The translations under genes and the position numbers were made by a program. A model generated the notes under the pieces. It saw only the letters and a program-made list of their open reading frames with translations. It had not been told where the DNA came from and ran no database searches. Of a DNA stretch of 64,000 nucleotides, positions 26,892 through 64,000 are shown piece after piece. Origin of the DNA: an uncultured Flavobacterium sp. (lineage in GTDB: Bacteria; Bacteroidota; Bacteroidia; Flavobacteriales; Flavobacteriaceae); NCBI GenBank assembly GCA_937773775.1, contig CALJVL010000024.1, forward strand, positions 1 through 64,000, in the 5' to 3' direction. Positions within the stretch are counted from its first letter, which is position 1. Each line of letters opens with the position of its first letter.

Positions 26892-27381
26892 ATGGCTATT
26901 CACAAACTGGATCTTGGCGACTTCGACGAAATAGATTACAATCTTATTGCTATTCATACTTCATTAGAAGATTTTCGATTAGCCTATTTCATCAATCAAA
27001 AACTGCCTATAAATTTAAGCAAAAGTAAGGATGAAGTTCAAATTAGTATAAAAGAAGGCGAGACAAATTTTTCCAGGTTTCATTATTATGACCTAGAAAA
27101 AGTAGTTTCTTGGAATTTGGTTCAGAATAAAAACGAAGTGTACCAACAAAAAAAAGAAACACTCCATAATTTATTTTCAAATATAACCATGGAAACTGCC
27201 ACAAAAGTATTCTTGCTACCAGAATTTAAAAAAGCAGATTTTTTTTTTAAAAATTGATAACACCGAAGACACTATAGATGTGTCAAAAATAAAGATAATA
27301 TTAAATACCATTGATCATATATCTGCTATATATACCGTAGATACCAATCAAATAAAATCGAAAAACAATTTAATTTTTTAA
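26892..27381 (+). pseudogene. IPExxxVDY-family protein, frameshifted at a T10 homopolymer
   Basis: First frame ends ...VFLLPEFKKADFFFKN*; with one T fewer it reads FFLKIDNTEDTIDVSKIKIILNTIDHISAIYTVDTNQIKSKNNLIF* to 27381. Lies between rnc and pyk, as expected for this family. Confidence 0.8.
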
Positions 27382-42145: not shown

Positions 42146-43381
42146 TTATAAATTTCCAATACTATCTAGTTCAAATCTCAACGGCTCCATTGTCTTTAAA
42201 TATCTTGCTTTATTTTTGCTGTTCATTGGTTCTCCTCCTGGTAAATTTAGCTTCAATGCATCCACTTGCTTGCCGTTTTTCCAAAAGCGATAACACACGT
42301 GTGGTCCCGTCGCCAAACCAGTGCTGCCAACTCTACCGATAACATCCCCTTGATTCACGCGCTGGCCACGTCGAACTAAAATTTTTGACATGTGTAAGTA
42401 TTGAGTAGTATAGGTGTTATTGTGTTTTACTTTGACATAATTACCGTTTCCAGCCGTATAGCCAGTCCTAATGACGGTTCCAGCGGCCGTAGTCGTAATT
42501 GGAGTTCCTCTAGGCGCTGCATAATCAGTACCTTTGTGTGCTTTCCACCTGTGTTGCACAGGATGATATCTATTCATCGTAAATCTAGACGAGATTCTAC
42601 TAAATTTGATTGGTGTTTTAAGGAAAAAATTCTTCAACGTCCTTCCTTCTTCATCGTAATAGCTAATTTGTCCAGATGAAGGATCTTGGGCAAAGGAAAA
42701 GGCATAAATGATTTTTCCGTTGTATTCAAAAAACGCAGCTTCAAGACTGTCGACTCCATCGTAAACAGAATCATTTATGAATCGTTCCGCTAAAACGTGA
42801 CACCAAAGCGGTCGCCCTTTTTAACTTTAAAAACATCAATTGACCAAGAATAAATCTTTGTAATTTTATATGCTAAAGCTGCTCCAACACCTGCATTCCC
42901 TAAAGTTTCGGATAAAGAGCCTTTTAAAACCCCCGCAATCGTCTCTGCGCCTAATGGTGATGGGTCTTGTTTTTTTATAAGCGACAACTGTACTGTCGCG
43001 GAAATCAAAGACATAATAATTTACAGCACTTTGTTGATATATAAAAACCTGTAATTTATTAGTTTTATCCTTCGATCTGAGCACTGTATAGGGCTTCTCT
43101 GGTCTAATTACCCTAACATTAAAGGTGTCCTTTACACTTTTAACAATTTCATAAACCTTCCTATCGCCAATATTTTGTCTGTTAATGATGGTCCCAAAAG
43201 TATCCCCTCTTTTAACTGTATCCTCAACTACGTTAAAATCCGAATAATTAAATCCAAAATCTGAATTTTTTACAATCTGCTTTACAGGCTTGGCCTTAAT
43301 TGCCTCTTCAGTTTTATTACCCGCTTTATTACAAGATAGTACCGCTGCCAATACTATGATAACCATTAATACCTTCTTCAA
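42146..43381 (-). pseudogene. M23-family metallopeptidase, two frameshifts
   Basis: Three segments: MKKVLMVII...DSTVVAYKK / QDPSPLGAETIAGVLKGSLSETL...FKVKKGDRFG / VLAERFINDSVYDGVDSLEAAFFEYNGKIIYAFSFAQDPSSGQISYYDEEGRTLKNFFLKTPIKFSRISSRF...HKGTDYAAPRGTPI. Confidence 0.85.
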
Positions 43382-54171: not shown

Positions 54172-55038
54172 TTAAACAGTAGTAAGCAAAAGTTTACTGC
54201 TGTTTTTTGTTTTATAAGTTCTCATTTTAATTTGGTTTTGTGAGTGCATTTGATTTGGAGTCAGCATATAATTAGAATAATGGGGTCGCTGTTGGTTATA
54301 TGTATTAATTGCTTCTTTAACGATACACTTCATTATTTTTAAATCTTGACTGTATTTATGAATCATAAATTCTTGTTTTAATATCCCATTAATTCTTTCA
54401 GCCACTGCATTTTCGTACGGGTCAGAGTTTTGCGTCATACTTGGGAGTATCCCGTTTTTACTTAAAATGCTTTGGTAATCATTGGCACAATATTGCAATC
54501 CCCTATCTGAGTGATGAATCAATGGTATTTCCTTGTCTTTCCTTTGTTGGATTGCCATCTTAAGGGCCATAACACTACTTTGTGTATTCATATTATCCGC
54601 AACATAATGCCCCATAATTTTCTTGGAATAGGCGTCTGTAATAATGCTTACGTAGCAGGGTTTTTCTCTTTTTCCGATATAGGTAATATCCGATACCCAG
54701 ACTTGCTCAGGTCTATTTATTTCCAAATCAAGGATTTGATTTTGATATTTTCTAAACCGATGGTGAGAGTTCGTAGTTATATGATAACTACGTTTTGGCT
54801 GTATTAATAGATGGTTGGCTCTAAGTATATCAAAAAACATATCTCTTCCGATGTGCATCAATTGGAGTTTGTCTGCTAAAAGATAATAAAGCTTCCTAGT
54901 TCCCAATCTAGGCATTGATTTTCTGATTTCAATTACCATAGCAACCACTTCTATGGCTTTGCTTTGTTTACTCCTCTTTCTACTAATTTTGCGATAATAA
55001 ACGGGTCGATTTACCCCGGACAAATAACAGGCGAACAC
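54172..55038 (-). CDS. IS3-family transposase OrfB (DDE integrase core)
   Basis: VWVSDITYIGKREKPCYVSIITDAYSKKIMGHYV, HSDRGLQYCANDY, ENAVAERINGILKQEF. Confidence 0.95.
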   Translation of the reverse strand: MFACYLSGVNRPVYYRKISRKRSKQSKAIEVVAMVIEIRKSMPRLGTRKLYYLLADKLQLMHIGRDMFFDILRANHLLIQPKRSYHITTNSHHRFRKYQNQILDLEINRPEQVWVSDITYIGKREKPCYVSIITDAYSKKIMGHYVADNMNTQSSVMALKMAIQQRKDKEIPLIHHSDRGLQYCANDYQSILSKNGILPSMTQNSDPYENAVAERINGILKQEFMIHKYSQDLKIMKCIVKEAINTYNQQRPHYSNYMLTPNQMHSQNQIKMRTYKTKNSSKLLLTTV

Positions 55039-55466
55039 TAGTGTTTGTTGTTCTTTTTGTCTAAAATGGTCGATTGTTCGGGTGGAGCATTTTTTCGTAT
55101 ATCTATTTGATATTCTTCTTCAGCAATATCAATCATCATATCAAAAAATATTACTTTTTTATCTGCAACAAAAGCTTGTCGTTCCAAGAATGACTTCTGC
55201 TTCTCTAGAAGTTTTACTTTGGCTTCAAGCTCCATTATCTTTTGTTCCGGAGACTTTGACATATTAAATGGTGTTTGGTTTTCCCAATCAAAGTTACCAA
55301 ATTTTCTCAACCATTGAACAACCGTTGATCGTGATTGAATACCATATTGTTTCCTGGCTTCTGTAACAGACAAGCTACCCTTTTCAATCTCTCTGACGAT
55401 TTGAAGCTTTAATGACATACTGTAGTCACATTGACTACGCTTAACATAGTTCGTATTCTTTTCCAT
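55038..55466 (-). CDS. IS3-family transposase OrfA (HTH)
   Basis: SMSLKLQIVREIEKGSLSVTEARKQYGIQSRSTVVQWLRKFG; A-rich overlap with the -1 frame of OrfB. Confidence 0.92.
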   Translation of the reverse strand: MEKNTNYVKRSQCDYSMSLKLQIVREIEKGSLSVTEARKQYGIQSRSTVVQWLRKFGNFDWENQTPFNMSKSPEQKIMELEAKVKLLEKQKSFLERQAFVADKKVIFFDMMIDIAEEEYQIDIRKNAPPEQSTILDKKNNKH

Positions 55467-60944: not shown

Positions 60945-61676
60945 CTAGTCTAAGAAAAAACTTCCTTTAAAACCTCTAGCGATTTTGGTTTTTTTGAAGC
61001 CATCAAGATGAAAACTGTAGTAATCAATCAGAATTTTAAGAACAATTTGTCTTTCAATGACATGAAAAGTTTTTTGGTCGTTTTCAAATTTCAAGCTGAT
61101 GAGTTTCCGGAACAAATTCGTTTCATGCTCAGTCAAAGAACTTATGGCATGAAACGGGGTGAAGACACCTTCTGTCATTTCGAAAAAAGGCATCTCTATG
61201 TCTGAAATGTCAGGGTAAAAACCGAGATATTTAGTGGTTTCAAGTAATAAAATGAGGTGGAAGTTGGCTATTTCATCATGATGGTCCAGCCAAAGCAATG
61301 CCGTTTCTAGAAAGCTGAAAAGGGACTCATTTTTCTCTTCCTCGTGAATCGAATGATGCAGAATTTCAGAAATAAACATAACGATCGTACTCTTATAAAT
61401 ATCCGAATGGATGGACTGAAATGGTGTGCTAATCTTTATTTCCTTGAAGTTTTCTAAGGTCCCTTTGTTCTTATGCACGGCTTCAATTTCAAGAATAGTC
61501 AGCGGCTGAAAATAAGCGATTTTTGTCCCGAGACTTCGGGAAGATTTACTGCCCGAAAAAGCATTCCTGACAAAATAGGATTTCAAGCCATCAGATTGAG
61601 TGAAACATTTCACAATCAAACTTTTTTCTTGAAATTTTATCGATGAAATAACGATGGCTTTGGTTTTGACTTGCAT
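60945..61676 (-). CDS. recO: DNA repair protein RecO
   Basis: TKAIVISSIKFQEKSLIVKCFTQSDGLKSYFVRNA; RecO OB-fold and C-terminal region; next to porZ. Confidence 0.88.
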   Translation of the reverse strand: MQVKTKAIVISSIKFQEKSLIVKCFTQSDGLKSYFVRNAFSGSKSSRSLGTKIAYFQPLTILEIEAVHKNKGTLENFKEIKISTPFQSIHSDIYKSTIVMFISEILHHSIHEEEKNESLFSFLETALLWLDHHDEIANFHLILLLETTKYLGFYPDISDIEMPFFEMTEGVFTPFHAISSLTEHETNLFRKLISLKFENDQKTFHVIERQIVLKILIDYYSFHLDGFKKTKIARGFKGSFFLD

Positions 61677-61732: not shown

Positions 61733-63989
61733 TTACCTTACGATCATCACTTTTTTTACTATGGTTTCCAGCCCATCTTGTGCCGAAATAAAAATCATAT
61801 AGACTCCAGAAGCTACTTTATATTTCCCAAAAGCATAGGTATCCCATTCTAATGTGCCTCCTTCGGAAGTGGCTTCGTAAAGCAAATCACCTTCAATGTC
61901 AGTGATTTTTACGTTGGCTCTATCTATCAAACCTGCGATTTTTACGGTGCCTTCATATTCTGGCCGAACCGGATTTGGATATACATAAGCTTTACTTAGA
62001 TCCTCACTCGCTTATGTAGCGATTCCTCTAAAAGAAACTAATCCTTTGTCTGTGGCAATAAAAACCTCTCCTGTCGAACTATTTATATCAATATCGTTGA
62101 TGACATTACTAGGCAAAGGGGAATTGTTTATAGTAAGATGATACAGTGTTTCCTGACCGTTGGGAGAAACCAGAAACAAACCAGAATCTGCAGTACCAAT
62201 CCACTTATTATTGGTTCCATCAACAACAATGTCAGTAATAAATTGCTCATATAATAATTCTTGAGCCAGGTTGTCTTCTAATATAATAATCGAATTCGTT
62301 GTCAATTGATTTTCGGTTTGAAAATTACTCACATTAGATAATACACGCAGCCCTTTTGTGGTGCCAATCCAAAGCTGGTTTCTATTATCTATAGCAATTG
62401 CCCTTACGTCTGAAGTAGGCAAGTTTCCTGTATCAGGTCCAAATGTGATTTTTTTTGAACGAATTATTACTTTCATTAAAACCAACAACACCATCTCGAT
62501 TTGTCGCCATCCATTTTGTTCCGTTTTTATCAATCGCCATCCTACCGAAACTATTGTCTTGACTTGCATCTAATACGTTATCCATCGAATAACTTTGCCA
62601 CTGTCCATTTGTCACCAATGCCTTTAAGCCATTTTTTACCCTGCTATTTGTGACCCAAAGATTTCCAGACTTATCAAACGCAGCTCCATTTATCCTCACA
62701 TCAAAATAATCCGGACCAGCGAAGGTTAAGGTTTCCAAACCGCTATTAGTTTGATTATACAAAAGTGTAGGTTCGTCATTTTCTATCTTTAACAACCCAG
62801 AAAAGAACGAACTGGCATACACGGTGTTTTCATTATTTGGATTAACAATTATCCTACTTATTGATTTTGCCCCGAGAACTGATTCGTAAGGAATATTTAA
62901 CCAACCTGTTGAAGTAAACTTACTGATGCCATAATTATCTAATGGATAAGGATTATATTCAACTGAATAATCTCCATAAACTGCCCAAACTGTACTAAAC
63001 GTCGCCTGAAGCGCAAAAATATTATTTCTCGAAGGTCCTGATGGAGTTGTGTTTTCAAAATCCGAAACAGCAACAACTGTAGTCTTAAATAGGCCATCTT
63101 CTTTTGTCCCAATGTATATTAGGTCCCCTACAGTTGCGGCACAGCTAAATGCAGGGTTACTTTCTGGGATTTGATTGCTATTTATTTGACGTACTAACTG
63201 CATTTGTTTATTGTAGACATAAACTGTGCTCGAGCTTGTAATAATCAAGTAAGTGTCATTTGCCCTCATGTCGAAAGTCGGTTGACCGAGAGCTAAAAAA
63301 CTGGTAAAGGAATTTGTACTTGTATTGTATCTATGTATATTTCCTGAAGTATTAATCGCCACCAACTCCATGTCAAAAGTTTCTATACTGGACCAAGTCC
63401 CAGCTGCAATTTGTTCCCATTGATTAAAGTCATTTAAATTTTGGCTAGACACAGATGCTCGCCGAATACCATCATTTGTGGCTGCATACATAAATCCGTT
63501 ATAAACTGCCGTTTGTCTAATACTGATTTCAGCACCATTATTTCCTATGAAATAAGTATCTCCAAAAAGCATCGTGCTTAAATTGAATTGGACTATGCCA
63601 AAATCACAAGAAACATAGACAATGCCTTCATATTCCATGAAATGATTTATTTTTTTCACGTTAGAAGGGAGTTGATTATTGATAATATCAATCACATTTA
63701 ACATACTCCCGTCAGCCTCGTTGATAACAATAATCAATCCGTTTTCGTAACCAACAAGTGATTTGTTAAACTTAGAGCTATAATAAAGTGAACTAATGGT
63801 TTGACCTGAAAGCCCATCTATAGTATTGGTTGTCTTTATTTGGTTGCTAATTGAATTTATAGAAAATAAGGCGTTTTCTGAAGCCGCAAAAATTCCGGCT
63901 GCCGATACTGACACATCCTTGATTTCATTGTATGAAAAATAGCCTTGCCAAGACAAATTAGTTTGAGCAAAACTCATTTGAATGATCAA
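61733..63989 (-). pseudogene. porZ: PorZ-like T9SS component (two-component-regulator-type propeller plus C-terminal sorting domain), disrupted
   Basis: N-part ...VVGFNESNNSFKK, frameshift at A8, then ITFGPDTGNLPTSDVRAIAIDNRNQLWIGTTKGLRVL...VSFRGIAT, in-frame TAA, then ASEDLSKAYVYPNPVRPEYEGTVKIAGLIDRANVKITDIEGDLLYEATSEGG...VMIVR. Confidence 0.8.
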
Positions 63990-64000
63990 TAGAAGCAGCA

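Follow-up and report, generated by a model that had tools for sequence, protein, structure and literature searches.

Lesions in porZ and porQ of an uncultured Flavobacterium suggest recent loss of an attachment module of the type IX secretion system

Background

The described proteins closest to the one considered here are PorZ of P. gingivalis (PDB 5m11) and Fjoh_0707 of F. johnsoniae, members of the same family which combine two beta-propellers with a type A C-terminal domain. Deletion of porZ in P. gingivalis leads to a loss of cargo processing and anchorage, and an intact C-terminal domain is required there for the outer-membrane translocation of cargo (PMC5121618). It has been shown in the same organism that PorZ hands anionic LPS to the PorU sortase inside a PorU-PorV-PorQ-PorZ complex (PMC8545088), with PorQ as the outer-membrane anchor of PorZ (PMC8545088, PMC10202324). 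A porZ deletion in F. johnsoniae results in poor surface colonization, much less biofilm and the absence of zorbs (PMC10936215), while the type B cargo of this species is independent of PorU and PorV (PMC9143113).

The attachment components have also been found to be missing from entire systems. PorQ, PorU and PorZ were lost together in the Sphingobacteriia (PMC7323717), and the Flavobacteriaceae strains Aa_F7 and DN50 are without PorU and PorQ (PMC7440613). In all of these the export core of the type IX secretion system (T9SS) is kept without the attachment components, as it probably is in the uncultured Flavobacterium analyzed here (GenBank assembly GCA_937773775.1). Its porZ lies in the window, the 64,000-nucleotide stretch of contig CALJVL010000024.1 that was analyzed, and whereas P. 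gingivalis PorZ and Fjoh_0707 are encoded in single open frames, the frame of this gene is broken twice.

The porZ locus

The minus-strand gene at positions 61733-64000 is porZ, readable only as three pieces. These match the NCBIfam profile NF052228 (T9SS_PorZ) at profile positions 11-517, 523-664 and 667-757 (E 2e-143, 6e-64 and 1e-42) and together span 11-757, which bears out the original prediction of a PorZ from end to end. NF052228 is an equivalog profile with a curated cut-off of 260 bits, exceeded by the N-terminal piece alone (479 bits). This piece (62433-64000, minus strand) encodes the signal peptide, the first propeller and most of the second; it contains the Pfam domain PF21544 (PorZ_N_b_propeller, E 1.4e-25, 90.8 bits, cut-off 27) and matches the P. 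gingivalis PorZ structure 5m11 in a phmmer search (E 7e-13). At an A8 tract (62456-62449 on the minus strand, T8 on the plus strand) the reading frame is lost, and the remainder of the second propeller is found in a different frame in the middle piece (62015-62455, minus strand). A TAA that is in frame with the downstream pieces (62014-62012, minus strand) then separates the propellers from the type A C-terminal secretion/sorting domain (61733-62011, minus strand), which in addition matches TIGR04183 (E 5e-7, 29.7 bits, cut-off 23). This domain is thus still encoded, but behind the TAA and out of frame with the N-terminal piece, and the gene as assembled does not give a single protein that ends in it. 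Judged by its sequence, the gene as assembled is a broken member of the PorZ family.

The start codon lies at contig base 64022, outside the window, and this is where the profile match begins; position 63989, at which the original prediction placed the upper boundary, is a mere internal TTG. The gene order at the locus is glutamate dehydrogenase gene, porZ, recO (60945-61676, minus strand), and the same two neighbours flank an empty site of 105-326 nt in six of the ten sampled genomes without PorZ. A second, intact porZ had been named as an observation that would speak against a loss; a profile search of the assembly revealed none, the other matches being weak propeller matches.

Elsewhere in the window, two adjoining ORFs at 54172-55466 (minus strand) resemble an IS3-type transposase pair and are located beside an lspA-like gene.

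porQ and the remaining T9SS genes

A search of the genome for the PorV family located porQ on contig C54 at 17.6-18.6 kb. Its match to NF033711 (T9SS_PorQ) halts at profile position 240 of 335, at an in-frame TGA, and beyond this an in-frame deletion of 75 nt removes the conserved C-terminal end of PorQ. In a relative, short direct repeats are present where the two ends of the deletion lie. Among 237 other genes, a single in-frame deletion of at least 15 residues was found.

All other T9SS genes of the genome that were inspected are open. PorU is encoded in an open frame of 1279 aa and SprA in one of 2394 aa; PorV and GldJ are open, as is a porV2-like gene, GldM scores above its profile cut-off, and open frames are present at the places of gldK, gldL, gldM and gldN. 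The decay that was to be looked for in porU, porV, sprA and gldK-N is therefore not seen. As porQ and porZ are broken in the assembly, a complete attachment complex of intact PorU, PorV, PorQ and PorZ is not encoded, while the genes of the export core (SprA, GldK-L-M-N and PorV) are all there and secretion of cargo is predicted from them. It had also been suggested that loss of PorZ may impair secretion or gliding. Relatives without PorU, PorQ and PorZ keep SprA, which does not support this suggestion, and a loss of gliding finds no support either, since flavobacteria without PorQ and PorU have been reported to glide (PMC7440613).

Strong matches to type A cargo, obtained with a profile built from seven domains of the window's own genome, number 3 in 0.84 Mb of that genome and 2 in 1.2 Mb of G017, a close relative without PorU. 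One type A C-terminal-domain match (contig C18:36885-40106) contains two TAA and is located beside a transposase-like ORF pair; it is possibly a T9SS cargo gene that was interrupted by an insertion element.

Probable assembly errors and the weight of the lesions

porZ is a single open frame in 98 Flavobacterium relatives, and in one more it ends at a contig boundary. At the position of the A8 tract 70 of the 99 relatives have A7, so that the tract in the window is one base too long; at the position of the TAA the relatives carry sense codons (GAA, AAA, GAT, GCN and similar). Both breaks are present as originally described. They had been taken as two independent pieces of evidence, and in this they are not of equal weight, the A8 break belonging to a class that is prone to error in this assembly and the TAA to a rare one.

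This was concluded from a comparison of 0.84 Mb of the genome with 1.2 Mb of G017, whose IleRS is ~89.5% identical. Frameshift-type breaks were found 20 times, in 14 of 235 conserved genes (contigs C24, C6 and C9), versus none in 240 G017 genes in the reverse comparison. Almost all consist of a single base inserted within or next to a short homopolymer. One falls into a gene read as sufB (C24:117356-118802), an iron-sulfur assembly gene that a living cell is very unlikely to carry in broken form. The breaks in porZ exceed chance, yet the class of the A8 break is common in this assembly. Because such insertions recur, even in sufB, the A8 break is probably an assembly error and provides weak evidence of decay. 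More generally, a frameshift from a single assembly says little as long as it has not been measured how error-prone that assembly is.

Nonsense codons, in contrast, occur in only 1 of the 235 conserved genes, which has four of them together with a frameshift, and the other 234 conserved genes that were tested contain no isolated ones. For this reason the TAA, by which the secretion signal domain is cut off, is more likely to be real, and it is backed further by the two lesions in porQ. Two of three nonsense-bearing genes are among the eight T9SS genes examined (p ~0.003 if random, a rough figure framed after the fact which can serve as a guide only). Assembly completeness is 91%; substitution errors may also occur, and the lesions in porZ and porQ are known from this one assembly.

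Taken together, the TAA and the two porQ lesions suggest a real and recent loss of an optional attachment module. We therefore favour, with a probability of roughly 0.55, the reading that one arm of the PorU-PorV-PorQ-PorZ complex, made up of PorZ and PorQ, recently lost its function while the export core was kept. The porU gene, which is still open, speaks against a real loss.

All breaks in porZ and porQ could instead be errors of a poor assembly, with both genes intact in the organism. The 20 frameshift-type breaks and their absence from the reverse comparison would fit such an explanation, as would the intact porZ of the nearest species in our tree and the purifying selection that is still visible in the gene: the porZ pieces carry 4 nonsynonymous and 17 synonymous private changes, within the range of five relatives, and relaxed selection in the form of an excess of private amino-acid changes was not seen. 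The known error class, however, consists of one-base insertions and not of nonsense substitutions or a repeat-bounded deletion of 75 nt, and a coincidence would be needed for such rare classes to strike two partner genes. We regard this explanation as rather unlikely. The lack of excess private amino-acid changes does mean that porZ is either intact in the organism or was lost very recently, and the loss, if real, must be recent.

A slightly more doubtful explanation is that both porZ breaks are real mutations, two independent hits in a dead gene. The rarity of the TAA class is in line with it, a dead gene is free to gather further lesions, and homopolymer tracts are natural hot spots, here an A7 in most relatives; on the other hand, a real A8 break is made less credible by the fact that 14 of the 235 conserved genes contain one-base insertions and that sufB is one of them. 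Continued production of a functional PorZ, through A8 slippage together with read-through of the stop or in the form of separate subunits, seems highly improbable even though A8 tracts can slip in transcription and the pieces lie in otherwise intact frames under constraint, as slippage would not bypass the TAA, a codon that acts here as a normal stop and also ends porZ itself, the C-terminal piece has no signal peptide and the arrangement occurs in none of the 98 full-length relatives.

Two further genes of the window are interrupted. The minus-strand gene at 42146-43381 is divided between two ORFs and has four stops within a brief stretch that is out of frame; its counterpart in G017 is an intact frame of 406 aa and resembles an M23-type peptidase. 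A conserved gene of ~164 aa at 26892-27378 (plus strand) has a frame change at a T10 tract close to its end.

Expected consequences of a loss of PorZ and PorQ

Under the favoured loss of PorZ and PorQ, the TAA terminates PorZ directly before its C-terminal domain, and a PorZ without this domain would presumably not be exported and would stay inside the cell or be degraded. PorQ without its C-terminal strands would be unable to hold PorZ, the attachment complex could then not provide the PorU sortase with its ligand, and the processing and anchorage of type A cargo would no longer proceed properly. Export by way of SprA should continue, as should the type B cargo, including the gliding adhesin, and an impairment of general secretion or of gliding is not expected. 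Type A cargo would be expected to suffer in its attachment and processing, and the cell in its colonization of surfaces, as does the porZ deletion mutant of F. johnsoniae (PMC10936215).

Probable repeated loss within Flavobacterium

PorZ is present in 150 of 160 sampled Flavobacterium genomes and absent from 10. To a divergent PorZ hidden in these ten we give little credit, as rescoring at E 0.001 gave weak partial matches, nearly all to long propeller proteins. SprA is present in all ten, PorQ scores above its cut-off in none, and for PorU there is nothing beyond weak tail matches. Matches to the PorV/PorQ family number at most one per PorZ-less genome versus typically three in the other genomes, suggesting that PorV2 is gone as well. 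In G005, the only genome whose porU locus was read, gldJ adjoins porV and porU is missing. These sequence comparisons indicate that several other lineages of Flavobacterium probably lost the same module as one unit.

In a tree of RecO and IleRS, some nodes of which are weak, the state of PorZ changes at least 4 times. The window's genome is nested in it among species that have PorZ, F. frigoris and F. degerlachei being two of them, and its lesions are therefore its own. A single ancient loss common to the six near PorZ-less genomes is not preferred but also not firmly rejected (p-AU 0.08), whereas the test rejects placing G017 together with the G066 group (p 0.027).

The loss of the module as such is already known from the Sphingobacteriia and, for PorU and PorQ, from Aa_F7 and DN50, and the window's genome is probably one more case, caught midway. 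It differs from these in having an open porU and in carrying porQ and porZ in damaged form instead of lacking them, which would be expected early in the same process of loss. No description of a repeated syntenic loss inside Flavobacterium, or of a possible halfway stage, was found in the literature searched. We tentatively propose that PorU, PorQ and PorZ constitute a dispensable cassette that is shed repeatedly as a unit, with the PorQ-PorZ arm going before the PorU sortase and the window's genome standing midway. If true, this would show the order in which the T9SS module is shed, PorQ and PorZ first and PorU later with the export core kept, and one could test which T9SS cargo depends on the module in organisms other than Porphyromonas.

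Interrupted genes of the module were also seen in two other genomes. In G019 (C25:15620-18928) porU is spread over three frames and porZ is intact; in G143 (C57:42363-44638) porZ lies in two frames and porU and porQ are open. These may be other intermediate stages, or errors. Finally, two tandem glutamate dehydrogenase genes are found beside the empty porZ site of G017 (C17:387000-405000), and they are 67% and 82% identical to the one of the window's genome.
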